A program made the position numbers and the translations under genes. A stretch of DNA of 64,000 nucleotides, from the IMG/VR virus record IMGVR_UViG_3300010935_000101, positions 1 through 64,000 of that record, one strand, 5' to 3'. The DNA is from a virus. Of this stretch, positions 1,441 through 55,400 are shown piece after piece (position 1 is the first letter of the stretch; each line of letters starts with the position of its first letter). The notes under the pieces were generated by a model, which saw nothing but the letters and a program-made list of their open reading frames with translations, was not told the origin of the DNA and searched no databases.

Positions 1441-3471
1441 ATGGACGATTTCAAAGTATTTGCAGATGCAATTAACAAAAAGTTCCTGGAACTTTCAGCT
1501 AATGGTACTCTATTAAGAGTTAATGTTCCTAAAGAACAATTATGGGCAACTTATCAAGCAGCATATTCTGCTAAGGATAACCCAATCTTCAGAGAACGCA
1601 AAGTTCATGAATGCAATACGTGCTATTCTTTTATAAAAAGACTTGGCGCATTAGTTGGTATCAACAAGGCAGGCAATTTGGACACAATTTGGAATGTATC
1701 TGGTTTACCAGCACCTTACCAAGGCGTAGCAAATACAATGCATGAACTTGTTTATGCTGCAAACATCACATCAATATTTTTAACTGACGAAGCATTAGTC
1801 GGTAAAGAATACAACATTGAAGAGAACGAAGCTGGTAACATCAAGTGGGAGCATTTCTACGCAGATGTAGACAAAGCATTTATCTCACAGGATGTAGCAG
1901 CAACTGTGGGTTCAGTTGAGTCTACTGTATCTGTATTCAAACGTGCTCTTGATGAATTCTCAGTAGAGACTCTTGAGTCAGTTATTGATTTGTGTGATAC
2001 AATATACAAAGGAATTGAATTCCAACCAACTGTTACTAAGTTCTTAGCAGCAAAGCAAGCTTATGAAGCAGGTGACAAGAACCTATTTATCTGGACTGAG
2101 TACAAGAACTATCCAGCTAAGATACGTAACTCTGCTATTGGTTCATTAATTATCAATATTCAGGAAGGGATGGAACTTGAATTAGCAGTTACTAAGTATG
2201 AACAAGTAGTTGCACCAAGCAATTACAAACGTACTTCTGCTATAGTTACTGAAGGAATGAAAAAACAAGCAGTTGCAACTATTGATGAATTAGGATTGCG
2301 TGACTCTTTACCAAGAAGACATGCTGAATTAGTTGATGTATCAGTTAACAATGTATTATTTGCAGATGCAAGTGCACAAGCAGTTATGCAGGACTCAATT
2401 GATGACCTTTTTGACTCAACTGTAAGTAAGTCTACTGAAGCACCTAAAAAAGCAGTTGAACTTACTATTGAACAATTTCTAGAAAAAGTACTACCTAATT
2501 CTAAATCTATTGAACTTTTACTCGAGAACAAGCATACACCAAACTTAGTATCTTTAGTAGCTCCTGTTAACCCTGAAGCACCAAACATGCTTAAGTGGAA
2601 CAACAACTTCTCATGGTCTTATGCTGGAGAAATGACTGATTCAGACTTAACTCAAAGAGTACAACAAGCTGGAGGCAGAGTTGATGGAGTATTTAGATTT
2701 ACTCATTCTTGGAATGAATTAGAACCAAACAAATCATTAATGGACTTACACGTGTTTATGCCTGGTTGTACTGTACCTTCTAGTGGAGGAGGTCCAAATG
2801 TAACTGGAAGAAGAGTTGGCTGGAATCAAAGAACTGATAGTGCTTCTGGTGGAACTCAAGATGTAGATTATATTGATGCTGCTCCTACAAATTATATTCC
2901 TGTAGAAAACATAACTTTTCCTGACATTAACAGAATGCCAAAAGGAACTTATACTTGTAAAATTCATAACTGGAGTTTTAGAGGTTCTGGAGGAAAAGGT
3001 AGAGCTGAAATTGCATTTGCAGGTCAAAAATTTGAATATGTGTACCCAGCTACTAAAGACCATGAATGGATTACAATAGCAGAAGTAACACTAAAAAATG
3101 GTGAATTTACTATTAACCACAAACTCCCTTGTTCAACTCCACAAAAGACTGAATGGAATCTGAATACTAAACAATACCATAGGGTATCAACTATTATGTT
3201 GTCACCAAACCATTGGGATGGACAAACAATTGGTAACAAGCATTACTTCTTTATGCTGGACGGCTGTAGCAATCCAGATCCAGTTAGAGGATTCTATAAT
3301 GAATTCTTATCTGAGGATCTAAGACCTCACCGTAAAGTGTTTGAAGTACTTTCATCTAAGATGAAGTGTACACCAGCTAAGGAGCAACTTAGTGGGTTGG
3401 GCTTCTCAAGCACACAACGCAATGAGTTATTTCTTAAGGTGGATAACAGACCTTACAAAATCACATTTTAA
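1441..3471 (+). CDS. large conserved phage protein, 676 aa, function unknown
   Basis: The start follows AAGGATAAACA. The N-terminal 120 residues contain FRERKVHECNTCYSFIKRLG, a motif I associate with a conserved phage protein family without a defined function; the CxxC could bind metal. Residues about 400-640 look like a separate beta-rich domain with many Gly, Ser, Asn and Trp residues. The following gene, 13 bases downstream, encodes a small partner that I recall as commonly adjacent in unrelated phages, so the two may work together. There is no signal peptide. An early role is inferred from position only. Confidence 0.6.
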   Translation: MDDFKVFADAINKKFLELSANGTLLRVNVPKEQLWATYQAAYSAKDNPIFRERKVHECNTCYSFIKRLGALVGINKAGNLDTIWNVSGLPAPYQGVANTMHELVYAANITSIFLTDEALVGKEYNIEENEAGNIKWEHFYADVDKAFISQDVAATVGSVESTVSVFKRALDEFSVETLESVIDLCDTIYKGIEFQPTVTKFLAAKQAYEAGDKNLFIWTEYKNYPAKIRNSAIGSLIINIQEGMELELAVTKYEQVVAPSNYKRTSAIVTEGMKKQAVATIDELGLRDSLPRRHAELVDVSVNNVLFADASAQAVMQDSIDDLFDSTVSKSTEAPKKAVELTIEQFLEKVLPNSKSIELLLENKHTPNLVSLVAPVNPEAPNMLKWNNNFSWSYAGEMTDSDLTQRVQQAGGRVDGVFRFTHSWNELEPNKSLMDLHVFMPGCTVPSSGGGPNVTGRRVGWNQRTDSASGGTQDVDYIDAAPTNYIPVENITFPDINRMPKGTYTCKIHNWSFRGSGGKGRAEIAFAGQKFEYVYPATKDHEWITIAEVTLKNGEFTINHKLPCSTPQKTEWNLNTKQYHRVSTIMLSPNHWDGQTIGNKHYFFMLDGCSNPDPVRGFYNEFLSEDLRPHRKVFEVLSSKMKCTPAKEQLSGLGFSSTQRNELFLKVDNRPYKITF

Positions 3472-3886: not shown

Positions 3887-3891
3887 TAGTT

Positions 3892-3914
3892 AGAGCACCA
3901 ATTTTTGGTGTTCT
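3892..3914 (+). terminator. hairpin after the 676-aa/133-aa gene pair
   Basis: Nine-base stem (AGAGCACCA with TGGTGTTCT, one G-T pair) around an ATTTT loop, five bases after a stop codon. No T-tract follows, so it may be a weak terminator or an RNA end-protecting hairpin. The outer sequence AGAGCAC...GTGTTCT recurs at 44719-44740. Confidence 0.55.
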
Positions 3915-3938
3915 ATAGTATTTAATAAAGGACCAACA

Positions 3939-4307
3939 ATGAAGAATGATTTTAAGGTGGGCGATTGGGTAAGGAATATACCTCTTAATAAATTATATAA
4001 AGTAACAGAGTTAACAGAATATTCGATAACTATAACTAAGTGGCAATTTAATCTAACTGACACCGCTTCTCTGAATAGCTTTGAACTTTGGAAACCTAAA
4101 CCATTAGAGTGGTGTTGGTTTAGTAATGGTAATGAGCCTTACTTAAGGCAATACTCACACGGAATTGACAACGGGTTTTATTTTGATATAAACAATGTAC
4201 CATTCAGATTTTGTGAACCTTATATAGGAGAATTGCCCACGTTTATAAAGGAACAACATGACACAAATGATAATCCCAGTAGGACAACAAGTCAACGTAG
4301 AAAATAA
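3939..4307 (+). CDS. hypothetical protein with WCWF motif, 122 aa
   Basis: The start follows AAAGGACCAACA. It opens with FKVGDWVRN, a typical start of small phage beta-barrel-like proteins. The centre reads LWKPKPLEWCWF, followed by an RQY strand, FRFCEPYIGELP and a short tail. The same arrangement (LWKPK..EWCWF, KQY, FIGTLP) occurs in the 195-residue protein at 21285, and a degenerate version in the protein at 20642, so this phage keeps at least two or three related copies. Function unknown. The gene is the last one before the 1.5 kb structured non-coding region. Confidence 0.6.
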   Translation: MKNDFKVGDWVRNIPLNKLYKVTELTEYSITITKWQFNLTDTASLNSFELWKPKPLEWCWFSNGNEPYLRQYSHGIDNGFYFDINNVPFRFCEPYIGELPTFIKEQHDTNDNPSRTTSQRRK

Positions 4308-4919
4308 ATATGCTTACAATAGGCTGGAGATTAGCAGATTAACAAATTTCTCATACTCACCTTGAGTATAACTGGCGTTCTAGTAATCACATCGTACGAT
4401 AACGAATCCTAAGCGTGGCTTGAGAACTACACAGCCTAACACTAGTAGATAACCCTGTGGATTTAAACTTGCAAAGGGAGAAGCTCGGAGAAAACCCAAG
4501 CACACATGGTTCAGCTTACAGGACCAACACAATATGTAAGTAGCTTGTTTATGGGCTTAAGCCACAATGTCAAATGGCAATTGCGTGGTATGTAAACTAG
4601 GGAACTACCTGAGCCAAAACTACGGGATAGTATCGGGTTTGGCCACTCGTTAGCCGAAGGGCAAATAAATACACAAAATCAGTATAGTTAACTGACGTAT
4701 ACCTATGTGTGAATTGTAGGCAGGTCTGGTATAAGCTACCCATCCTATAAAATGAACAAGCTAGCAGAGACTAACTACCTCTGTACAGTAAACTGCCGTA
4801 AGAAGTTTGCCAGCGATAGTATCAACGGATTTAAACCCGGCACCACACCTCCATGAAGTCAAGACATAAGTATCTTAGTATACTATAGCCAGTTATCTGA
4901 AAGAGGTGTGACTTTATAT

Positions 4920-4990
4920 GTCAAGGATGCATGTGTACACATGGTAGTAATAGGAACAGTCCCCTATGCGGTTCGAATCCGCTCCTTGAC
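4920..4990 (+). ncRNA. tRNA-like cloverleaf module 1
   Basis: Acceptor-like stem GTCAAGG (4920-4926) with CCTTGAC (4984-4990), a hairpin CATGT-GTAC-ACATG (4930-4943), a stem ATAGG/CCTAT (4950-4954 and 4963-4967) and a T-arm GCGG-TTCGAAT-CCGC (4968-4982), followed by CACCA. The four helices give a cloverleaf, but the D-arm has no GG, the anticodon-like loop has 8 bases and there is no variable loop. It is therefore tRNA-like rather than a normal tRNA gene. It may be a decayed tRNA or a domain of the larger RNA. Confidence 0.5.
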
Positions 4991-5327
4991 CACCATTTTA
5001 AGTCTTCGATGAGCACACATTGAAGACAGAGTTAAAACCACTCTGCAGGACTGAGGTTCTTAAAAGAAGTCCTTAATCCAGTTTTACTAGGAAGTGTAAC
5101 CGGACATGTGTGTTCTTCGAAGCTTATCACTTCAAATGGTTAGCCTAACCGCTAGCCTGCTCTGGTATTATGTAAGCAATACTCGTACCCCGATCCACGA
5201 GAGAGATCGGTACCTTGGTGGTACAAAGGCAATCAAACCACACCCTATGAAACCGATGGTCGAGACAGTTACAGGGTTACGAAACTGTGAACCAGCCCAG
5301 CGATGATAAGCTGGGATACTTATGTTG

Positions 5328-5384
5328 TAGTGTGGGCACATCTGGAGACCCCAGACGCCAGTTCGATTCTGGAATATGACACTA
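5328..5384 (+). ncRNA. tRNA-like T-arm module 2
   Basis: Outer stem TAGTGT/ACACTA encloses GTG-TGGG-CAC (sharing bases with the outer stem, so the two cannot fully coexist), TCTGG-AGACC-CCAGA and a T-arm CCAG-TTCGATT-CTGG (5358-5372). The T-loop fits the TTCRANY consensus, but no seven-pair acceptor stem or normal anticodon loop can be drawn. Read as a structural element of the surrounding RNA. Confidence 0.4.
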
Positions 5385-5424
5385 GGGTAGCTCCCTTGGA
5401 ACGGCTCTTTAGCGGGAGCCTTAT

Positions 5425-5505
5425 GAACTACCTATCTAGGTCGATAGAGCATCTCCTAACTGAACATTTGGAGTTAGCCTTCAGGTTCGAATCCTGAGTA
5501 GTTCA
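5425..5505 (+). ncRNA. tRNA-like cloverleaf module 3
   Basis: Acceptor-like stem GAACTAC (5425-5431) with GTAGTTC (5498-5504) stacks directly on a perfect T-arm TCAGG-TTCGAAT-CCTGA (5481-5497). A D-like hairpin CTATC-TAGGTC-GATAG (5432-5447) contains the expected GG. The anticodon-like stem CTAACT/AGTTAG closes a 10-base loop, and about 8 unpaired bases precede it. The fold is close to a tRNA but lacks a readable anticodon loop, so no amino acid can be assigned. No CCA is encoded. Confidence 0.5.
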
Positions 5506-5793
5506 TCATATATAGTTGATACCTAGCGAAGTAGGTATGAAGCAATCTGGCCAGATGGAGCAGACAATAACAATTTTACCGTCTGCTCTAGTGTGGCTAG
5601 TATGTTAGGTTTTGATGCCCACAGAACCATACTATATGCAAGGTGTAAGCTATTACCTATATCAAGTTTAGCAGTGCCTGGTGAGGTAACGTATAATAAT
5701 ACAGAAATGTACATATGGAGCCAGTATAACAAGCCACAGAGATGATAGTTGATATTGACTCTAGTATGTATATATTAATCAAAAGGAAACATT

Positions 5794-6012
5794 ATGAGTA
5801 AAACAACAATATCACAAGCACTTATGGAATTTGATAAGAAATACATAACTCCAGACACAGAGTTTATCCTCACTATACGAGATATAGCAAGAATGTATAA
5901 AACTGTACAGAGGAGAGAAAATGAGAACCTTGCTCTTAGAGCCAAGATTGCTATATTGGAACTAGAAGTTGAACATAATAAAACTAGACCTGAAAGGCTT
6001 ATTTATGGATAA
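5794..6012 (+). CDS. hypothetical protein, 72 aa
   Basis: First gene after the structured RNA region, starting after AAAAGGAAACATT. The second half (residues 37-65) is a charged heptad-like helix typical of a short coiled coil. It ends inside the next gene (8-base overlap). No known family recognised. Confidence 0.55.
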   Translation: MSKTTISQALMEFDKKYITPDTEFILTIRDIARMYKTVQRRENENLALRAKIAILELEVEHNKTRPERLIYG

Positions 6013-6202
6013 TTATATGAAGCCAAAAGAAATAGCATACTACTATGAACTAGGCACACTAGGTTCATTTAGTATGACACTAATGGATTTATTTGGAAAA
6101 GCAGATACTGGCAATCAATTTAGACTAGCATCAGCATTTCCAGAATACTATGAAGCGTATCTATTATGGTACAAAAAACCTAAAGGTTGGAAGGACTTTT
6201 AA
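6005..6202 (+). CDS. hypothetical protein, 65 aa
   Basis: An ATG at 6005 lies 9 bases after GAAAGG and is preferred to an earlier in-frame ATG at 5969 that sits deep inside the previous gene. The product is rich in Tyr, Leu and aromatic residues (PEYYEAYLLWYKKPKGW) but has no membrane segment. Stop and next start touch (TAA then ATG), so it is coupled to the following gene. Function unknown. Confidence 0.5.
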   Translation: MDNYMKPKEIAYYYELGTLGSFSMTLMDLFGKADTGNQFRLASAFPEYYEAYLLWYKKPKGWKDF

Positions 6203-6481
6203 ATGATTACAGCTAATGGGTATGTATATGGACGCAACTGGGAATTTGGATACAATATATACCCAGCAACTACTTTAATTGCTGATACATATACTGAACT
6301 AAAACAACAGATACTAGATGAAACTGATCTAGGTGTTTTTGACTCTGGAATGGGCTATGAAACAGTTATGGGTGTACACTATACAGACATTATAGAAAGT
6401 ATAAAAGAAAAGGGCTGGACAAAAACTCGTAATTTAAAATCTATTAAAGTCGGGAAACTTAAAGGTAAAAAGGATTTTTAA
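6203..6481 (+). CDS. hypothetical protein, 92 aa
   Basis: Starts immediately after the stop of the previous gene, whose last codons AAGGAC serve as its ribosome binding site. Soluble, mixed alpha/beta composition with a basic C-terminus (KVGKLKGKKDF). The last codons (AAAAAGGAT) again provide the ribosome binding site of the next gene. No family recognised. Confidence 0.5.
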   Translation: MITANGYVYGRNWEFGYNIYPATTLIADTYTELKQQILDETDLGVFDSGMGYETVMGVHYTDIIESIKEKGWTKTRNLKSIKVGKLKGKKDF

Positions 6482-6673
6482 ATGAACATAAAATTAATCA
6501 TATATACTATATTGGGGTTTATGTCTCCAGCATTTCTAATTGGATATGTGAACTGGGATATAACTATAATTACAACTATTGGTCAATGGTCTTCAGATGC
6601 AAGATTTGCATTTGCTATGGCATCAATAGCTGGTGGATTATTTGGTTCACTGCTTGGAGACATAAGGTCATGA
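6482..6673 (+). CDS. small membrane protein, 63 aa
   Basis: Two hydrophobic segments at about residues 3-24 and 42-60 suggest a two-pass inner-membrane protein. It overlaps the next tiny membrane protein gene by 4 bases (ATGA). A holin-like function is conceivable from size and topology, but no lysis enzyme lies nearby. No family recognised. Confidence 0.5.
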   Translation: MNIKLIIYTILGFMSPAFLIGYVNWDITIITTIGQWSSDARFAFAMASIAGGLFGSLLGDIRS

Positions 6674-6789
6674 AAATAGTAATAATTATTGGTTCATTCT
6701 TAGCAATTCTATTTGTTATGGGACTTATGTCACAATTTGACCCAGAGGTAGAGCCGATTAGTTATCATCAAATGATAAATAGTAAATAA
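6670..6789 (+). CDS. very small membrane protein, 39 aa
   Basis: The ATG at 6670 overlaps the previous stop as ATGA, with AAGG a few bases upstream. Residues 2-19 (KIVIIIGSFLAILFVMGL) form a single membrane span, followed by a short acidic tail. It is coupled to the two-pass membrane protein upstream, so the two may form a unit. Confidence 0.45.
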   Translation: MKIVIIIGSFLAILFVMGLMSQFDPEVEPISYHQMINSK

Positions 6790-6866
6790 AATAGAAAAGA
6801 GTATTTAAGTATTTAGAGGATTTTTACTTAATTGTAATTTAATAAAAATTAATTAAAGGAAATATT

Positions 6867-13266: not shown

Positions 13267-13269
13267 ACA

Positions 13270-13505
13270 AATCGTGCCCCTTGATTTGGGGCTAGTATGG
13301 TTGTTACACTCATATGAAGAAGCGGTTAATCACCGTACTAGAACACGAAACGAAGTATCGTCGGCAACTAGATGCCGTTAATTTCATACCATGAGGTGCG
13401 CCTTTGAACGGACTTGGATTATCTAGCGGAACTACCTATTACAAGCAATCAATTGATGGTAGGTATATACCAAATGTGCCTACTAGTGAATTGATTAACA
13501 AAGGA
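13270..13505 (+). ncRNA. structured intergenic RNA, about 235 nt
   Basis: No gene lies here. The stretch contains GCCCC-TTGATTT-GGGGC (13276-13292), then a ten-pair helix CTAGTATGGT/ACCGTACTAG starting right after it, ACGA-AGTA-TCGT, CGGCA-ACTAGA-TGCCG and a long hairpin ACCTA/TAGGT near 13435 and 13465. The first hairpin alone could be a terminator but lacks a T-tract. The dense folding suggests a structured RNA leader or small RNA. No match to a known class is visible by eye. Confidence 0.5.
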
Positions 13506-13510
13506 ACTTT

Positions 13511-13642
13511 ATGCATACTTATTTAATTACATTTCCACACATATTTGCACATGCCCGATTCAAAGAGAATCTAGGGAAGTATTTTTTAAATGAGTTCAGC
13601 ACTAATATAATCACATACAACATTATAGAGGAAACAATATGA
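13511..13642 (+). CDS. small protein downstream of structured RNA, 43 aa
   Basis: A 43-codon frame begins after AAAGGAACTTT and ends as ATGA overlapping the next gene. The ribosome binding site and coupling favour a real gene or a leader peptide. The composition is ordinary, with no membrane span. Its position right behind the structured RNA makes a regulatory leader role possible. Confidence 0.45.
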   Translation: MHTYLITFPHIFAHARFKENLGKYFLNEFSTNIITYNIIEETI

Positions 13643-14127
13643 AAAAATTTGCTAATAATGGACAAGTAATTAAAGCTTACATAGATCAATCATATGAATT
13701 TGTAAGTAATTATAGAAACTCTTTATGGTTCAAGGGAACTGAGCTGTACTCATATGATTCTTTATTAGCAATTATTGATGTACCAAACAGTGTGCTATTA
13801 ATTGACAGTGCTATTAAAAATTACTCAAATACCACAGCTAAACAGACTTATGCATTATTAGAACAGTCAGGTAGTTTCACCCTGTATATAATACCATTAA
13901 AAACTAAACCTAACAAAGTACTAGAATATTATTGGAATCGCATTGAAATGACCATTGCCAAATTTAACCGAGCTTATAAACATAAGGATTATTACAAAAC
14001 TTGCATTAAGCAATTACTTGACGAAATAGAATCTTATGCATCTTATGTTGGAATTGATAAACGAAGTAAAGCTTATCAATTTAAACACCAAATTATTCAA
14101 AAATTATTTAAACACCAAATATTATAA
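13639..14127 (+). CDS. hypothetical protein, 162 aa
   Basis: Starts as ATGA overlapping the small upstream frame, with AGAGGAAAC before it. The first half is beta-rich (ELYSYDSLLAII, NSVLLIDSAIKNYSNTTAKQ) and faintly recalls a small phage domain with a Y-S-x-T-T strand (DUF8033-like); the second half is helical and basic. Function unknown. Confidence 0.5.
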   Translation: MKKFANNGQVIKAYIDQSYEFVSNYRNSLWFKGTELYSYDSLLAIIDVPNSVLLIDSAIKNYSNTTAKQTYALLEQSGSFTLYIIPLKTKPNKVLEYYWNRIEMTIAKFNRAYKHKDYYKTCIKQLLDEIESYASYVGIDKRSKAYQFKHQIIQKLFKHQIL

Positions 14128-26228: not shown

Positions 26229-26369
26229 TAATTTTATAACACCAGATAATTTCTTATACGTGTATAAACTAACTGAACGTAATACAGTATAGAAATAACA
26301 TTAGGTCATCAACAATTGACAAGTTGACGGTAAGTAGCTTCTTAACTGGAGGTTCGCCTATTTTTACAT

Positions 26370-26458
26370 AGTGTGTTGGCTGAGTTGGCTTAAGGCAGCA
26401 GATTGCTAATTTGTCGAGTGTAACAGCTCCGAGGGTTCGAATCCCTCACACACTGCCA
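26370..26458 (+). tRNA. tRNA-Ser (anticodon GCU)
   Basis: Acceptor AGTGTGT (26370-26376) pairs with ACACACT (26448-26454), then discriminator G and an encoded CCA. The anticodon loop TTGCTAA gives GCT, reading AGC and AGU codons. A long variable arm (between the anticodon stem and T-arm) and G73 fit serine. The T-arm GAGGG-TTCGAAT-CCCTC is perfect. The preceding 140 bases (26229-26369) hold small hairpins such as TTATAC/GTATAA but no gene. A hairpin RNA follows 16 bases later. Confidence 0.92.
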
Positions 26459-33772: not shown

Positions 33773-33777
33773 TCTGT

Positions 33778-33804
33778 GAACACTCTTTCGGGAGTGTTCC
33801 TTTT
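33778..33804 (+). terminator. Rho-independent terminator ending the replication operon
   Basis: GAACACTC (33778-33785) pairs with GAGTGTTC (33792-33799), loop TTTCGG, followed by CTTTT. Located six bases after the stop codon of the preceding gene. Confidence 0.85.
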
Positions 33805-33805
33805 A

Positions 33806-34098
33806 ACTCAGCAATGAGCGTATTTATGAAAGTCAGATTCTATTGAATGACTACATAATGTAGTGGAAATTTACAATACGTTCTTTGGTGAGTTAATTAC
33901 CACCAAGTCTAACTACAATTAAATAGACATAAAACTTTTAATGGGAAGCGCCAGTTATATAACGCAGTCTATTACTCAAGGAACACTATCTTGGGTATTA
34001 CGTGCCGGCATCGTGAAGGACTTTAACCGAATGTCACCCCAATTATTTTTAGTGTTTACTTCAACCTTGTTTTCATGTTCAAGGTTGTATTAAACACT
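33806..34098 (+). ncRNA. structured leader region with three hairpins
   Basis: The 300 bases after the terminator hold no gene but contain CTACA-TAA-TGTAG (33851), TTGGTG/CACCAA near 33882-33905, a CTCAAG/CTTGGG hairpin near 33977, and a long two-part hairpin at 34051-34098: AGTGTTTA/TAAACACT outside and CAACCTTG/CAAGGTTG inside. The last one ends four bases before the AAGGAA ribosome binding site of the next frame, so it may control its translation. No known RNA class is recognised. Confidence 0.45.
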
Positions 34099-41118: not shown

Positions 41119-41609
41119 CTTTTGACAGATGGATATCAACACACACAAAGAAAAAAAATAAGATATTATTAAAACTAGTAGGTAAAACTGATGTAGAGAT
41201 AGTTGAGTATTTTAAGTGGGATAACATGGTTCTAACAGAACCTAAATACTGTGAATTATACGCAACTAAAAGTAAGTGCCACATAGTAGACAGCTTAAAC
41301 TGTCTACTATGTGGATGTCCTTTCTTCAAAGTAACACCAGAAGAAGATCTCAGTACAACAGGCATGCTAGTCATGAGTAGTTGCTCAATAAACTCCAAAT
41401 ATGTGGACATCTTCAATTTCACTAATGATGATGGACGTGTATGTAGTCAATGTGATTGTACTAATTGCTCAATTAACCATACCGATAGCTTTGCTCTCAA
41501 CTCATTAAGAGCAGATAACCCTGATTTCTGTAATGATACGTCCAGCTTTTTGGAACATTTAAGGGCATATCAATTTTCAGAAATATTAGGAAAGTACAAA
41601 TTATTTTGA
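41115..41609 (+). CDS. Cys-rich protein next to nrdJ, 164 aa
   Basis: Residues about 53-72 read YCELYATKSKCHIVDSLNCL followed by LCGCPFF; later CSQCDCTNC. This resembles the cysteine-rich small domain PF04071 (pattern N-C-L-x-C-x-C-P), which I recall near or fused to cobalamin biosynthesis proteins in bacteria. Coupled by ATGA to a B12-dependent reductase, it may serve B12 handling or metal binding. The family match is by eye and needs a profile search. Confidence 0.55.
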   Translation: MTFDRWISTHTKKKNKILLKLVGKTDVEIVEYFKWDNMVLTEPKYCELYATKSKCHIVDSLNCLLCGCPFFKVTPEEDLSTTGMLVMSSCSINSKYVDIFNFTNDDGRVCSQCDCTNCSINHTDSFALNSLRADNPDFCNDTSSFLEHLRAYQFSEILGKYKLF

Positions 41610-45585: not shown

Positions 45586-48500
45586 TTAATTGAACCTTAC
45601 AATACTTGATATATCTGGTATTAAATCAAGGATATTTGGCTGTAGGATCTCTCCTGGGGCATTATCCATCATCCAACGATAACTCACACCATCCACCCCA
45701 GTACGTAAATATGTATCGAATGGATCTTGAAAGTCAATACCTGTTAACTGTTGAGTTCCTTGCATTAATAGGGACTTAGTCGGATTTCTTTTTACCATTG
45801 AGGTTAATGCTTTAGCTTGGCTCAAGTAGTACTTCATAAAGAACAACCCACCAACTCTCTCAGCGTATTTCCACCATCTGTTCATGGTATATCCATAGTT
45901 CACCAACAACTGATCCAAATAATTTAGTATTTCTTTTTCAGTTTTGGATGTAATCTTACCATCTTTCTTAATTGCTTTCTCTTCTAACTCTTCTTTAATT
46001 ATCTGTCTAGTAATTGCATCTCCATAATGCACTGTTTTCAATAGAGTGCCATACAGCGCACTTGTTTTATTAATATACGCTACATTTCGGATATTATCTA
46101 TCGCACCTTTCCAATTCTTTTTCTCTATATATGTATTTACCATTGTTAATAGTTGCCCTTCACCTTGACCCTCTATGTTGATATCCTCAACCAGTGCGGT
46201 ATATTGACCATCCTTCACCAACTCATCCCATACATTACCCTCTAATTGTCTCTTTAACTGTTTTATTCTATTCTCAACTTCTTCACCAGCCATTCTTTTA
46301 ACTTCTAGCACAGCAAGTTGTTGTGACTTTTTGTTGTAGTCATCCAAATCATCCCATCTCTGTTTGAACTTCTTTGTATACTTTATTGGGTCTATCCCAT
46401 GTGTCATTGCAACTATTGCATTTGATGTCTGGTTACCAGCAAGGACATCGAAATTTAACACAACCATAGCATTCTTTACATACCTCAGGACCTCACTCAA
46501 ATATGACTCCAACGCCATTAATCTAGCTCTTGCTACTGGGTATTTTCTTATGTCCAACCCAAACTTTACAAAATTTCCAATTGTTACATCTTTTTCACCA
46601 GTCATTAATTCCACGTAATCTTTGTGAATCATTATGCCTTTAGCGCCAATCCTCTTGAATATGTAGTCCTTTGTATGGTCTGGCAAGTATTCCCATTTAT
46701 CATGTCTCTTCTCACGTTTAACCCCATTCTTTTTATCTTCATCCGTGTACTCTTCAACTAGCACATAATCTTCTGGTCTTTCTGATATTCCCTTTGCACT
46801 ATGTTCTATTATTGTGTCTACTACTCTTTTATTTTCTGTTGCTGTCAAGGTTGTTTTGATACTTCTACTGAATGTATTACTCATTACATCTGCCAACTCA
46901 GTTTTTCTATCTGGCAAGTGCAACTCTTTCTCCAATTTATTCAACTGTATTCTATAGTCAACTATTTCATTTTTGTGGTCGTACACTGGTATTAGTGTTT
47001 GTCCAACTCCTAGTGAGAATTTTTTTATTGTATCAGCATCATTATTGTTGATAGCATTAATTACATTTTTTGTTTTTCTTCTCAACTCACCATCTATTAA
47101 CCCTACTTTACCTTTTAGCTCATTATTTTTTCTTACCAGTGAACTCACCGGTATACCTTCAGCCGTATGACTAATTAACCCAATTGCACCCTCATTGAAC
47201 CCAACTGACTTCACCATTCCTGTCATTAAGAAGTATTTCTTACCCTCTACTATTGCGTAGGGTTCGATTTCTACCAAGTGCATTTTAATGCTCTGTTGAG
47301 CCTTTACCTCTTCTTCTGGTATCAACTCGTACTTTACCAATCCATCTTTTGGTCTTGTGTACCCTTTTGACACTGGATTATTAGCACCAATTGTTGCATC
47401 AGCAATCATATTATCCATATAACTTCTATACAAATGTATTGTTTTATCTAGCACATCCCTATCCAGCTTTGCAACTGCTTCTAGTTGTGTCTTATCACTT
47501 TTTTGCAGAACCTTCAAAGACACCAACTGATCAATCATCTTGACTAGTTCCTTATCTGGGCTCTTGTGTTTCTTAGACTGCACATGCAATCTTGCTGCTA
47601 TGTTGTGTGCATTGATTTGCTGGTTGTGTACTGTTGTCTTACCTGTCACCAAGTAATCAGCTAATCCGTCTATCTGCTCCATTAGTATTCTATTTTGCTC
47701 TGCTGCTTTTGGTGCATGTTTTTCATTTCTTTCTTCTGCGGTGTATTTAACTTCTGCACTAGTAACTTGTTTTATCAACTCTTTTACTTTTGCTTTTACT
47801 TTGTCACCATCATTGATGTATGCTTTTAACTCGTCCACTCCGAACTGGGCCAAGTCACCTTCTAGCACCACTCTAGTTACTGCTTTCTTAGTTGACTCAT
47901 CTACATCTTTGTACAATTCATCAGCAACTTGTTTAACCCCATCCCTAATTTTTCCGGTGTGCTTTTCTACTACCTGCTTTGCTTGGCGGAACACCATGTA
48001 CATGTCTGCGGCATCTACTGATGTTGTGTCCTGTGTTACCATTCTCCATAAGTACTGGCTAATTCCTGTTTCTACTAGGTCATTTAGTATTGGTATTTTC
48101 TTTATGTGATTTGCTAACCACTTGGCACTGTGCTTTGCACTTAGTTTTTGACTCCACTCTTCAGCTTTATCTATAGCAGGTTTTAGTGCTTCATCTAGTG
48201 CATTTATTTTCACCTTGGCGTAATCACTCATTCCCTCTGGGGCATTTTCTTTCTTATATTTAGCCTCTAGTGCTTCTGCATCTAATTTTGCTATGGTTTT
48301 TACCATATCAGCAATCATTTGACCACCAGTATCTCCTCTACCTGTTAATGTCCTCCACTGGTCATTAACTATCTTTATCAGTATGTTTAACACTTTCTTG
48401 AAAGGCTCTCGTTTATTTGGGTCCATCTTTAGTTGTCTTATTAGTGGTGTTGTTATTTTTACATCTTTTATTGCATTATACACTTGTTCATTTGTAGTTG

Positions 48501-49455
48501 CATATGCGTAGAACTCTTCTGGATCTGCTGTTTTATCGAATGTGTATTCAAACTTCATCTTAGCTATTGCTACTTCTTCGACTGTTGGGTTTTCAATTCC
48601 TTCCAAGAACAATTTATATGTAGCCCCACTATCTACTGCGCTATCTCGCAAATCTTCCATCAACTTTTTGAGTTTTCTATTTTTACTGAATACATGTGCT
48701 GACATCAAGTGGTTTATTTCATGTAGAAATATCTCACTAACTCTGCTCAATCTACTCATTTTATTCCATCTAATATGCATTTCTTTTGTTCGTAAGTCCA
48801 TTTGTCCAGCAGTTTGATCTTTTGCACTCTCAAACATTCGCAATTTTACGTTACCAGTTCCCAGGTTTTGCATAGTTTCTGTGTATGTGTCTATTATTGT
48901 ATTTTGTAGGTCAGCAAATTCTATGTTTGTTATCGTGTTGCCTTCCTGCACATCTAATCCGTAGTAGTTATTGAACTCATCTCTCAACACTTCACCCAGA
49001 CTTAGTTCTTCCTGTCCAAGGAACACGTCACTTTCTGTACTACCAATTCCAATGTCTGCTTCACTACCACGTATATTAACAGCTGCCATTGACGGCATTA
49101 ACACTGACTGTTTTAATTCTGTTTCTTGACTTCTTATTTCACCTTTGGTAAATGTGTAGTTTTTGCCATCCATTAAGTGAATCACATGTGAACCGCCAAT
49201 GTCTTTAACTAGCACCAATGGCTGATTTAGTTGCCCTGTTCCACCTAAGTTTATCCTAGCTACATTGTCTGTTTGTTCTACTAACTGTCTATACAACACT
49301 TTCTCAGTATCAGTCATTATGTTGTTCTTTAATCCCAACCAATATTCATTTATTGCTTTTTGCAATCGAACTGAATCCACTTTAAGATTCAATTCTTTTA
49401 ATTTTTTATCAATTGCTTTGTAACCTGCTATTTGGTCTTGTGCTGAACAACCCAT
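45586..49455 (-). CDS. giant putative virion protein with HExxH metalloprotease motif, 1,289 aa
   Basis: Begins two bases after the vRNAP stop, using AAGGAC in the last vRNAP codons as ribosome binding site, so the two are translated together. Residues about 228-245 contain IFLHEINHLMSAH, a gluzincin-type zinc site (H-E-x-x-H). A downstream Glu could complete the site, but it is not certain. The rest is long, helical and Lys/Glu-rich, as in phage internal proteins that are ejected with the DNA. It could be a second ejected protein with protease activity towards host proteins or a maturation protease. No N4 protein of this exact kind is known to me. Confidence 0.6.
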   Translation of the reverse strand: MGCSAQDQIAGYKAIDKKLKELNLKVDSVRLQKAINEYWLGLKNNIMTDTEKVLYRQLVEQTDNVARINLGGTGQLNQPLVLVKDIGGSHVIHLMDGKNYTFTKGEIRSQETELKQSVLMPSMAAVNIRGSEADIGIGSTESDVFLGQEELSLGEVLRDEFNNYYGLDVQEGNTITNIEFADLQNTIIDTYTETMQNLGTGNVKLRMFESAKDQTAGQMDLRTKEMHIRWNKMSRLSRVSEIFLHEINHLMSAHVFSKNRKLKKLMEDLRDSAVDSGATYKLFLEGIENPTVEEVAIAKMKFEYTFDKTADPEEFYAYATTNEQVYNAIKDVKITTPLIRQLKMDPNKREPFKKVLNILIKIVNDQWRTLTGRGDTGGQMIADMVKTIAKLDAEALEAKYKKENAPEGMSDYAKVKINALDEALKPAIDKAEEWSQKLSAKHSAKWLANHIKKIPILNDLVETGISQYLWRMVTQDTTSVDAADMYMVFRQAKQVVEKHTGKIRDGVKQVADELYKDVDESTKKAVTRVVLEGDLAQFGVDELKAYINDGDKVKAKVKELIKQVTSAEVKYTAEERNEKHAPKAAEQNRILMEQIDGLADYLVTGKTTVHNQQINAHNIAARLHVQSKKHKSPDKELVKMIDQLVSLKVLQKSDKTQLEAVAKLDRDVLDKTIHLYRSYMDNMIADATIGANNPVSKGYTRPKDGLVKYELIPEEEVKAQQSIKMHLVEIEPYAIVEGKKYFLMTGMVKSVGFNEGAIGLISHTAEGIPVSSLVRKNNELKGKVGLIDGELRRKTKNVINAINNNDADTIKKFSLGVGQTLIPVYDHKNEIVDYRIQLNKLEKELHLPDRKTELADVMSNTFSRSIKTTLTATENKRVVDTIIEHSAKGISERPEDYVLVEEYTDEDKKNGVKREKRHDKWEYLPDHTKDYIFKRIGAKGIMIHKDYVELMTGEKDVTIGNFVKFGLDIRKYPVARARLMALESYLSEVLRYVKNAMVVLNFDVLAGNQTSNAIVAMTHGIDPIKYTKKFKQRWDDLDDYNKKSQQLAVLEVKRMAGEEVENRIKQLKRQLEGNVWDELVKDGQYTALVEDINIEGQGEGQLLTMVNTYIEKKNWKGAIDNIRNVAYINKTSALYGTLLKTVHYGDAITRQIIKEELEEKAIKKDGKITSKTEKEILNYLDQLLVNYGYTMNRWWKYAERVGGLFFMKYYLSQAKALTSMVKRNPTKSLLMQGTQQLTGIDFQDPFDTYLRTGVDGVSYRWMMDNAPGEILQPNILDLIPDISSIVRFN

Positions 49456-49457
49456 AT

Positions 49458-52400
49458 TTAGTCCTTACATTCTATTTTTTTATTCACATTCTTATTAAAT
49501 ACTTCACTTGGAGCTATTATAACTTCTTCTTGCTTAGCAGTTTCTTTTGATTTATTAATTACTGCTTCTAACTGTTTTCTCCAATCTTTATCCATCATAT
49601 TAATTGTTGGTATTCCCTTTACTCTGGCCATTTCAACTGCTTGTCCAGTTCCACCTTTTGGTCTCATTGGATTTTTAGTCTCTTCTGAGTTGAATAGCAC
49701 AAAGTCAACTGGAGTGTCCAGATTTTTACCAAACACTTGATTAGTATTTCTAGCCATCAACTTTAATCCGCCTTCTCTCAAGTACTGTGGAGCGGGATGT
49801 AATTCTTTAGCAATTGCTTTTGTTTTCTCAGTAGCCATTTCTGGACCGAACAACTCTTTATTTGTTGTGCCATCACTGAATGCTTTATCTGCACCCTCTT
49901 CTTTGTTACCGAATGTTTTACCAGTTTGTAGTTTGTAACCTTTTTTCGCTAACCAAGCAGCAACTTTAGTCATCAGTATTAGTGTTTCTTTTGATGTTTG
50001 TCTACTACCAATCCCAGCATATGTCATTGTGTTTTGACCTTTTTGGTAACTTGGCAAACTATCGAATATTGGTCTATTTGAACTTTCTACAGCAGTCTCT
50101 TTTGTATCATTTGATATACTTTTTATGTCACTCTTAACCCACACCCCATTTACCAATTCTCTACCAAACTTTGTTAAGTCTATTTTTGTGACTATCTTAG
50201 CATCAGAGTTTGCTAATTTGTTTGTTATGTTGTTGTAGTGCCAGCTTTGGCTATCCTTCTTTTTTGACTCTGAATATTCACCAATTATCTCAACTGTATC
50301 ATTCGCACTTAGTAAATCCCATAACTTATTATCAACTTTCAGTTTACCGTCTGATTTTTCACTAATCTGCGCAATGTTTGCTTTGGACTCAACTTGTGTT
50401 TTCTTATTTGCTATATCACTCAAGTTGAACACATAATCAGTATTTGCATTTAATTTTATTCCCTTATTAGCAAACTCTTTTTTCGTTACTTTTCTGTCTG
50501 CTGCTAACTTATTCTGTAGCAATCTCTTAATTGTTTCAATTGCTGGGAATTCTTTAGCTCTAGTTTCACTAGCATCTATTTTAGCTATTCCTGAACCCAT
50601 CTGGAATAAGTGTCCTGAGTAGTAGCCCTTAGCACTATTTGCTAATCTCTCTTTATTCACTTCTTCTGCTGTTTCCAGGCTATCTAACATCTTACCAATT
50701 CCTAACCCAATTCTGTTTGTTTCGTTAGTGTAGTCCTCTCTTAACTCACCTTCTGGGCGTAATCCTATGTTAGCAAACATTCTTTTCTTTTGTTTTTCAT
50801 CCATTGTTGCAAGCATATTTTCTAGCATTCCTAGTTGGTCAGCAACTATTGATCTATTGAATCCTGTCTCAATCATGTTTGTATTGTAACTATCTGCTGT
50901 ATCTGTTAGCATTGCTTTGTCTAAGCTCAGCACTACTGCATCGTATACGTTTCCTCCAGCATATTTGCCACCTAACTCTCTATTTAGCACATCTAGCATC
51001 ATTCTGCCATCAATTGCGTGTATTGATATCGTTGGTGCTGCACCAGTATTTACTGCTGGCTTAAACTGCTTGATTTGACCACCAACTGATGTATTCCCAA
51101 CTGTAACCTTAGTTGAGTGAATTCCGCCTTTGTCACCAGTCTTGTTCAGTGATTGATTAACTCTTCCTTCAGTTTCATCCCATACTATATTGTGCCCATG
51201 TCCTTCTGCAGTTAATTTAGCATTTATGCTCTGCATATCTTCTTTACTTAATCTGTATGTCTCACCTTTGTGTCTACCTTTACCGTACTTAGCATCTAGG
51301 AACTTATTTACCTCATCTGCCAGTCTTATTTGATATGCTTCGAACACCAACATTTCTATTGCTTTAGCGGCATCTCTATTTTTATTAACGAATCCTAATC
51401 TGCTATCGAATGCAGTTTCTATTGCTGTACCGAAAGTTTCCTTAATTACTGAGTCTATTGTGTCGATTGCTGGCTGTATGTCTAGTGCAAGCAGTTGTTC
51501 CCATCTCTCAGAAGGCGTTTCAACTTTAGCACCGAACTCATTCACGTACTTCTCTTTTGGAATGAATGTTTTTACGAACTCTAACTCTTTATCAGCATTT
51601 TCACCAGCTTTTAATTTCTTACTAGCTGTCTTTATTGCTTTTACTAATGTATTAACACCTAGTGAATATGTCAATTTCTTTTTAATTGAACTGATACTAG
51701 CACCGTATATGTACACCATAACTGGACTTTTTGCTATTGAACGAATGTTCTTCAAGTTTAACTCACCAATTTGATTTAGCATTGCTAGTTGTTGTATTTC
51801 TAACTCACTTGGTTTATCCAATCCCTCTAACTTAGTTTTGTACGCTTGTACTTCACCAATCATTGCCACACCAATTGTTGAGTACAGATCTTTGAACGTA
51901 TCATCTGATTCTAATTCTTTCCTTAATTCTGCAAGTTTTTCGCCTGATAAACCTTTCATTTTCTCTTCAATTTCAGCAGCATGCTTCTTACCAGCTTCAA
52001 TTAGTGCTCCTGGTGTGAACTCAACTGTATCCCCCAACCATTTCTTAACATATGCCTCTAACTGTGGCTTTCTAGCCTCTGTGTATATACCACCTTTTTC
52101 TGCCAATCTTAGTGCTAAGTCACTACCAATCTGTAGTAGTGTAAGTATCATACCACTTGTTATCGCATCTATCTCTAAGTTCGCGTGTGTTTCTATTTTC
52201 GTGCCATCTTTTATTGCCTGGTCCCAGTCTACTAGCAACTCTATTGAGCTTATTCCGTGGTGCCCTTCTGAATCAGCAAACACTTCTGCCATTGCTTCAG
52301 CATCTATCTTACCATCTCTCAGTGCTTCGTATGCTTGTTTTATTGCTACTTGAGTTTTATTCGGATCCCCATCTTTATCTAGTTGTGGTTCAATCTCAAT

Positions 52401-55400
52401 TCCTTTGTCTGTTACTTTGAATACGTCATTGAAGTTAGCAGTAGCTGTTTCAGCACTTAGCTTGTCTGGATCCATATCTAACCCTTGCATGATGCTTGCC
52501 TCTAGCATTTGTCTGCTATCTGCATCATTTACGTCCACTGACTCTGTACTACCTTCAGCAACTACGAATTCTCTATGTAGTTTACTCTCTTGGTATTGTA
52601 TGTCATTCAGTATTGTGTATCTTCCACTTACTGTTTGGCCCCAATCTAAGTAAAACTCTTTACCTTTTGTTGCTTTAGCGAATGTCTTTAATATCTCCCA
52701 TTCCCTAACTAATTTGTCATTTCTAGCCCTTTGTGCATCTATTTCACTTACGTGCAATCCGGCAGTATCTACATCTACGTAACCCATTGCTTTTAGTGCT
52801 TCTTTTTCATCCATCTCTAACCATCTTTGTAATCTTGGACTAATTTTGTATGCAGTCTTTTCAGTGTTATTTAGGAATTCTACTGACTTTGCATCCATTG
52901 GATTCTTAGTATTCATCACTGTTCTATTAGCATTATCTTTTGGTGCTTTCAAACTTGGTAATGGCCTATTTCTATTTTCATTCAGGTATTGTAGTTTATT
53001 GATTGCTTTAGTTAATGCACCTCTTTCCACTCCAATATTTTCCCAATTTGTTTTTATTAAGTTTTGGTTTTTTCCACCAGCTTCTAGTGGTTTACCATCC
53101 ATTGAACCATTTTCAGTTGCTATCACCTGTACTAGTACACCCAACGTTGACTTGAATGACTCCTCTGTGAACTCTGGAGTAGTCTCATTTAGTCTGATTC
53201 CTAAGGCTTGATATACTTCACCACCAATGTCTTTTCTAATACTTGCTGAATTCACGTATCCTTGAGCAGCTTCTTGCTTTACTCGGATTTGCTCATCTGG
53301 ATCTGTAATTCCTAAGTACTGCGCCATTTCTGACTCATCAAAGCTTAGTATCTTACCAATCATTGCTTGTGAATCTGCAAGCATCTTAGCTGTGAAGAAC
53401 TTTAGTATATTTTTTGTTTGCTCATCAATCTGCAATTTGCCATCTTTTGTTGTACCAAGTAACTCTATTATGTCAACCGGAGCTGACGTTTCTTGTTGCT
53501 CTAGCACTCCTGTGAATTCACTAACTTGTTTTATTGACTTAACTGGATTTCTGCCTGATGTTTTAACGTGCACTTTGTCACCATCTGCTGATTCCACTAT
53601 GTATGCTTGTTTATCCGCATCTTGTAGTTTATCACCTTTTACCACTACTTTCTTGATTGGCACATACTTATTAATGTGTTTTATTACTAACCCATTATTA
53701 TCTATGTTTTTACTGAGGGTATTATTACCAACTATTATCGTGCCAATTTTGGTATTGTTTAAGTAATCGGCCATTGTCTTGAAGTTCTCTAGCAGCTCAA
53801 CTTTACTCTCAGCATCTGTTATGAAGAACTCTTTGAATCCTTTTGGAAGCACTTCTAGTAGTCTATCAGCCTTAGCGAACGGATTTCCAGTTAATTGTCC
53901 GAACACACTATCATTTGCTCTCTTAACTAGTCTGTGTATTGGGCTATTTGCTGGGTAGTTAATTAGCAATCTGCCTATTAATTTAGCACTTAAGCTTGTC
54001 TTACCAGCTTCTATTTCTTTTAGTTCATCTCTTAGTTCAGCTATTTTATCATTTTTAACTAATTCTAGTGCTCGATTCATTGCTGTTCCAGGAGCTTCTA
54101 GCTTACCGTCTTTCTTTAATTGTCTTTTAGCTATTACTCTTTCACCATTAACATCAACTACTGGTGTACCATACAATTCTTCATCTATTTTAGTAATCGT
54201 ACCAATTGTTGTCTTAACTGGCTCACTTGTAAACTCAGCTTCAATTGCATTGATAGCATCTAGTATTGTTTGTAGCTCAGCATTAACTTTACGGTATTGC
54301 TTGTTTGTTTTCTTTAGCATTTTATCTAATCTATTGATTTGCTTTATCATTTGCTTCACTAACTTATCAATCTGTGCAACCAATCCAGCAAGTATACTTT
54401 TTGCTTCTGTGTCGTACTTTCTGTTCATTCTTTTATCTAGGGCTGTCTCAAGTCTGTCAAGCATCTTACCAAGTCTTGTTCTATCCTCTTGTAAGTCCCC
54501 AAGCTTCTTAGCGTAGTACTCTTTCACATGCTTTTTAACATTCATATCTTTAACACCATCAATTAATGCACTTAACTCTTTATTAACAAATTCTATCTTT
54601 GCTCTAACTTCACTTAGCGGTCCATTATCTGATTCAACTTGTTCTGGGAGGACACCATCATCTATTGTTGCTTCGACTGGTTCTTGGATAAGTCTTTCCT
54701 CTTCCAGTCGAGTAAGCTCTGCTATGTCTTCTTCACTCATATTTTTGTAGTCTGAGTCGAACCCTTTTTCATTCATTATCTTTTTAACTTCTTGCTTAGG
54801 TTCATCTTCACTTTGACCCATCTTCACTTCTGAAGCTTCTTTCATTCTTTGTTGTTTTGTAGTACTTTCTAAGCTGCCTTTTGGCTTAGCAACTTTCTTT
54901 GGTTGTTTAGCTTTCTCTATTAACTCATTATATCTTTTAGTCTGGCCTGGAGTAAGTTTTAACTCACCAGCAGCGTATCTAGTCACGAACTCTTGTTGTT
55001 TCTTAGTTAAGTTACTTAGGTCTTGAGTTTCTTTTACCTCTGTCTTAGTAGGCTTCACAGGGACCCCAACATCAGCAGACTTCTGATTAGCTTTAAGTTT
55101 TTCTGAACGTGCAATCTCCGCTTCTCTTTTTTCTTTTTTAATACGTTCTACATCTTTTACATAAGTCGTATCTTTATACTTTTGATCATTTAACATAGTG
55201 GTTTCTCTATTAGTCACTGTAACATATATACTTCTAAGACGTTTTCGCTCTTTACCATTAGCATTTATGGCTGCTTCAGTCAGAGCATTTTTATATTCTT
55301 CCAATTCTTTTACAGTCATCTTTTTAACGTTTTTAATAACTTTAAATTTAACCTCTGTTTTTTCAGTAACTGATGCTACTTTTTCTGAGTTTTTGTACTC

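Follow-up and report, generated by a model that had tools for sequence, protein, structure and literature searches.

A gene-free region of an N4-like phage genome as a probable island of discrete, non-canonical tRNA-like units

Does the longest gene-free region of an N4-like phage genome specify a single giant structured RNA, or several small RNAs in a row? The region lies in a 96,760-bp IMG/VR virus record; the window analysed here is the first 64 kb of that record, and positions refer to the window unless otherwise stated. A preliminary description placed the gene-free stretch at 4308-5793 and read it as a giant ornate RNA of the GOLLD or ROOL kind in an N4-like phage, with several RNAs in a row as the fallback. 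GOLLD and ROOL are long noncoding phage RNAs that often occur near tRNA islands, and GOLLD linkers can hold tRNAs (PMC12286853). As judged from the sequence, the phage is N4-like and infects bacteria, which upholds this part of the description: the virion RNA polymerase family is matched by two neighbouring minus-strand proteins. The match (45586-58361, minus strand) is divided between two adjacent ORFs of 2967 and 1289 aa, and a DprA-like domain is present at the end of the first.

The noncoding gap proper extends from 4366 to 5522 (1157 nt), is flanked on both sides by plus-strand genes and is the longest in the whole 96.8-kb record, the second-longest being 616 nt. As a 35-codon ORF occupies the first 58 bases of the interval originally reported, the gene-free region starts at about 4366; absence of genes therefore stands for about 4366-5522, but not for those 58 bases. 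This ORF has a clear Shine-Dalgarno sequence (AAAGGAACAACATG; AAAGGAACAAC precedes the ATG) and a positive codon score, and no protein family match was found for it. Codon scoring detects phage-like codon usage in no frame over about 4370-5510, in agreement with the absence of coding potential noted before. The elevated GC content is likewise confirmed: at 0.44, the GC of 4366-5522 exceeds that of all other 1157-nt windows in the 64 kb (mean 0.36, runner-up 0.42). Further upstream, 1441-3471 encodes a 676-aa protein of unknown function (phrog_1735), whose relatives, covering at least 80% of its length, are present in 426 phage records of very diverse kinds. The features of the region and its borders are as follows.

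4258-4365, plus strand: 35-codon ORF (start 4258, stop ends 4365), the left border of the island
4366-4900, plus strand: noncoding, GC-rich 5' part of the island
4920-4995, plus strand: cloverleaf unit 1, with perfect acceptor and T-arm; found by the strict scan; z -2.7
5000-5320, plus strand: row of short perfect hairpins (5027-5045, 5138-5150, 5190-5210, 5210-5224 and 5296-5315); windows with z about -1 to -2
5323-5388, plus strand: third T-loop, CCAG-TTCGATT-CTGG (T-loop from 5361); weak candidate
5424-5508, plus strand: cloverleaf unit 2, tRNA-Phe(GAA)-like; found by the strict scan; z -2.5
5516-5665, plus strand: strongly folded 3' hairpin segment; z -4.5; overlaps the open frame 5527-5745
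5527-5745: start-less open frame with a neutral codon score (about 0) and no protein family match found

Covariance-model searches do not bear out a giant RNA of the GOLLD or ROOL kind. The Infernal check proposed for it gave no match to the GOLLD model (RF02032) in the whole record and none to the ROOL model (RF03087), even at E = 10; the ROOL result is the weaker test because no control genome gave a match either. Neither family appeared in cmscan, which yielded no meaningful match to other Rfam families in the region. Group I (RF00028) and group II introns were without a match in the region, whereas the same library detects a group I intron in a related phage (G001, below), and ARAGORN -m found no tmRNA. 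A DNA search of phages and plasmids, and one of IMG/VR seeded from two reading-frame sets, yielded no homologue of the region.

Structure in nearly every 100 bases, as claimed, is borne out for the 3' part only. Folding energy of the first 535 nt (4366-4900) is near the shuffled level (z -1.0), and that of 4353-4500 is not lower than expected (z +0.3), whereas 4900-5522 (z -3.4 against shuffles) and about 4900-5745 (z -5.1) are more stable than shuffled sequence; coding controls range from z -0.8 to -3.2. Because folding energy is above chance there alone, special structure is limited to the 3' part, in which minimum-free-energy (MFE) pairs are short-range (median span 24-29). The abundance of hairpins is also only partly upheld: the region has 21 perfect stems of 5 bp or longer against 10.8 +/- 3.3 in dinucleotide shuffles (a count reached in 2 of 200), but the 6 perfect stems of 6 bp or longer are no excess, as windows of the same length elsewhere contain 0-11. 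One hairpin at about 5607-5627 has anticodon-arm geometry (7-bp stem, loop ATGCCCA) and is not significant alone. Promoter hairpins of the N4 virion polymerase were considered and rejected, as hairpins with three-base loops occur throughout the window, and the region contains only one whose stem is 6 bp or longer. Repeats within the region, both direct and inverted, were judged to be at chance level.

The only statistically strong features of the region are two compact, self-contained cloverleaves. A pattern scan of both strands of the 64 kb, which looked for acceptor stems adjoining a TTCRA T-arm, gave perfect acceptor stems at three places: 4920-4995 (unit 1), 5424 to about 5508/5510 (unit 2) and a canonical tRNA-Ser at 26370. 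A strict scan that was blind to the T-loop sequence (any 7-nt T-loop was allowed; the fold had to have three branches, the last of 4-5 bp, and a terminal stem of 7 bp or more) was applied to both strands of 223 kb of sequence from this phage and two related ones. It gave five low-energy loci (at or below -21.7 kcal/mol), namely units 1 and 2, two canonical tRNAs and one odd unit near the tRNA-Lys of a relative, together with three weak hits elsewhere (-12 to -16 kcal/mol). The same scan found nothing in 16,848 windows of the shuffled region, in the coding control or in the first 600 nt of the region, and in the remainder of the region units 1 and 2 are its sole hits. When each unit is folded alone and unconstrained, the cloverleaf is both the MFE and the centroid structure. 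In each, acceptor and T stem together have exactly 12 pairs, as is typical of elongator tRNAs, and the two units occupy about 160 of the 1157 nt of the gap.

Two of the three T-loops noticed previously are thus those of the cloverleaves at 4920-4995 and 5424-5508; the third (from 5361) was rejected as a full tRNA-like unit, having no convincing acceptor stem and z -0.2, and was missed by the strict scan. ARAGORN and the Rfam tRNA model accept neither unit 1 nor unit 2, their sole find being the tRNA-Ser at 26370, and the nearest canonical tRNA of this phage is 21 kb away. With relaxed settings, ARAGORN produces many overlapping hits on both strands, which were not counted as evidence.

The departures from a canonical tRNA lie in the lower half of the units. 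Both carry the 12-bp acceptor/T stack with a TTCRA T-loop that characterizes tRNAs, and neither has a normal anticodon arm (5 bp, 7-nt loop, U33, purine 37). In unit 1, an 8-bp acceptor and a 4-bp T stem with T-loop TTCGAAT form the upper half, followed by a CACCA 3' tail; a D-like arm is present, and the lower arm is a 5-bp stem with an 8-nt loop (AACAGTCC) in which U33 is absent. The perfect upper half is thus kept and the normal anticodon loop lost. Unit 2 has an acceptor of 7-8 bp (7 pairs, with 5 in the T stem), a T arm TCAGG-TTCGAAT-CCTGA, an ATCA tail and a D arm CTATC/GATAG with GG within the D loop. Its lower arm (5453-5473) has a stem of up to 7 bp that contains one U.U mismatch, and a 7-nt loop, CTGAACA, which reads as U33, anticodon GAA (Phe) and C37. 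In the folding model, unit 2 resembles a tRNA-Phe(GAA) whose anticodon stem is extended and whose position 37 is a pyrimidine; its stem probabilities are 0.99, 0.97, 0.62 and 0.98. Its cloverleaf score of 29.5, under rules that were drawn up after unit 2 had been seen and that use general tRNA features only, is the best in 223 kb, and 120 shuffles reach at most 22.8.

Among the readings considered, several RNAs in a row is the best fit, given two discrete cloverleaves: the region is most likely a series of small RNAs, of which at least two are cloverleaf-shaped, rather than one giant RNA. More specifically, the predicted structures suggest, with a probability of roughly 0.7, an island of discrete, non-canonical tRNA-like units. 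A plus-strand transcript would bear several small structured RNAs in series, including at least two free-standing non-canonical cloverleaves. Host RNase P and 3' tRNA-processing enzymes might cut the units from this precursor, possibly by reading the 12-bp acceptor/T stack present in both. Retention of a tRNA upper half with a lower half free to vary is known from tRNA-like processing signals such as MALAT1 mascRNA and plant-virus 3' ends, where the upper half is a handle for tRNA-processing enzymes. Those structures lie at the 3' terminus of longer RNAs, in eukaryotes or RNA viruses, whereas here two units are predicted inside the operon of a DNA phage.

The released products might be replacement tRNAs, poorly recognised by the tRNA-cutting defences of the host, or decoys for those enzymes. 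This is the most plausible role because an altered anticodon loop is predicted to let phage tRNAs escape the tRNA-cutting defences of the host (PMC10264068) and some phages evade retron defence by making tRNAs (PMC11555353); by analogy with these systems, an anti-tRNase function of the putative units is conceivable but doubtful. The tRNA clusters of cluster C1 mycobacteriophages are similar in that they are phage-encoded and gene-free, contain several tRNA-type units and concentrate their departures in the anticodon arm (PMC10264068). They differ in that their tRNAs are recognised by standard finders (PMC10264068), whereas the lower arms here depart too far from the norm for ARAGORN and Rfam to succeed, and a large part of the present island is not tRNA-like. 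If the units are expressed, standard annotation overlooks tRNA-type genes of phages and phage tRNA counts are too low for this lineage; kept upper halves combined with changing anticodon arms would be a direct sign of selection by the tRNA-cutting defences of the host. A more far-reaching proposal is rather unlikely: that this N4-like lineage carries islands of new tRNA-derived RNAs, with upper halves kept and anticodon halves remodelled, which are joined to other structured RNAs in a long functional transcript, serve as decoys against defence or as components of a single large RNA assembly, and go undetected in present tRNA and Rfam searches.

Relatives of the phage were found via the DNA polymerase and the MoxR-type ATPase: G001 (90 kb) and G002 (36 kb). 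Profiles of these two proteins gave only one further relative, a distant 11-kb fragment. Both G001 and G002 share the flanking genes and lack the region at the same place; as the flanks are kept without it, the region seems to belong to an insert specific to this phage, about 3 kb in length (about 3890-6866). Long gene-free stretches with tRNA-like arrays occur elsewhere in both relatives.

G002, L010 10241-11340: array consisting of a canonical tRNA-Lys, then aberrant units
G002, L010 10842-10939: unit with loop CTAGACA
G002, L010 10955-11047: GAU unit; anticodon stem of about 9 bp, loop CTGATTA
G002, L010 11054-11129: CAU unit
G002, L024 8003-8735: second gene-free array of aberrant tRNA-like units
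G001, L023 4100-4700 and 13430-13960, minus strand: gene-free arrays, read by eye
G001, L027 650-681 and 556-584 (minus strand), and G002, L026 4898-4929 and L029 786-814: loci of two shared noncoding motifs

The T-loop TGCAATT occurs among the GAU and CAU units of G002, and in G001 the array at 13430-13960, as read by eye, includes a tRNA-Leu-like unit that apparently carries inserts. In the arrays of the relatives, anticodon stems are lengthened, T-loops read TGCAATT or TGCAAAT, and inserts seem to be present in the tRNA-Leu-like and in a doubled unit. Short conserved pieces are common to the arrays of G001 and G002. The noncoding motifs CTGGACTANNNAGTGGTGTNGAGNACAACCAG and GAACGTAGTNAGTNCNAGGCTNACANGGC are common to the two phages and occur nowhere else in IMG/VR; in the GAACGTAGTNAGTNCNAGGCTNACANGGC motif, a T-stem pair changes from C-G to U-A between them. 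Pairwise alignment of the present region with the G002 array scores 99, which is no better than chance (shuffles: mean 87, maximum 132). The region thus resembles the relatives' arrays in kind, not in sequence. At two shorter gene-free stretches of the window, 13267-13512 and 26229-26369, the ends resemble the G002 arrays in sequence and position; the latter directly precedes the canonical tRNA-Ser.

These comparisons bear on whether the island is instead a single giant structured RNA, about 1.2-1.4 kb in length, that would represent a new class and contain the cloverleaves as integral domains, comparable to the tRNAs in some GOLLD linkers. Such an RNA would be consistent with the length, GC of 0.44 and gene-free status of the region, and with z -5.1 across 4900-5745, but it is unlikely, as the first 535 nt are not significantly stabler than shuffles, pairing in the 3' part is short-range, and the relatives carry discrete units, not one conserved long RNA. 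Here, unlike in GOLLD and ROOL (PMC12286853), there is no covariance-model match, and excess structure is confined to the 3' part. Long GC-rich gene-free phage regions with T-loops thus need not be GOLLD-like giant RNAs.

Aberrant lower arms would also be expected if former tRNA genes and their spacers were no longer working and were drifting, and a decaying cluster of this kind would fit the failure to find a homologue, the lack of the region at the same place in the relatives and the half of the region without excess structure. Drift would not, however, maintain perfect acceptor and T-stem pairing in both units; in addition, phage genomes seldom retain 1.2 kb of dead DNA, and the GC of the region is above that of the genome, not below it, which makes decay quite improbable. 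A split gene, with the ORF at 4258 as the 5' part and the open frame 5527-5745 as the 3' part of a gene interrupted by an intron-like insertion, would account for a start with a Shine-Dalgarno sequence at the left and a start-less frame at the right, and a group I intron does divide the MoxR-type ATPase gene of G001, but it is highly improbable, since the library that detects that intron gives no group I or II match here, the right-hand frame is codon-neutral and without a family, and the joined protein has no significant homologue. A KTSC domain in this joined product, suggested by a chance-level hit, was discarded, as a search gave no KTSC match. Discrete tRNA-like units in series are accordingly the preferred reading of the island.

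The intron of G001 (L011 5397-5690, minus strand), assigned to group I by Rfam, is accompanied by an endonuclease-like ORF within the ATPase gene. Strong local folds also occur elsewhere in the window. A 15-bp perfect hairpin at 41279-41314 (CCACATAGTAGACAG / CTGTCTACTATGTGG) lies within an ORF and, with z -5.6, is the top local fold in the sampled background. The stretch 33773-33900 is gene-free and strongly folded (z -4.4), and consists of a hairpin and then a long compound stem.
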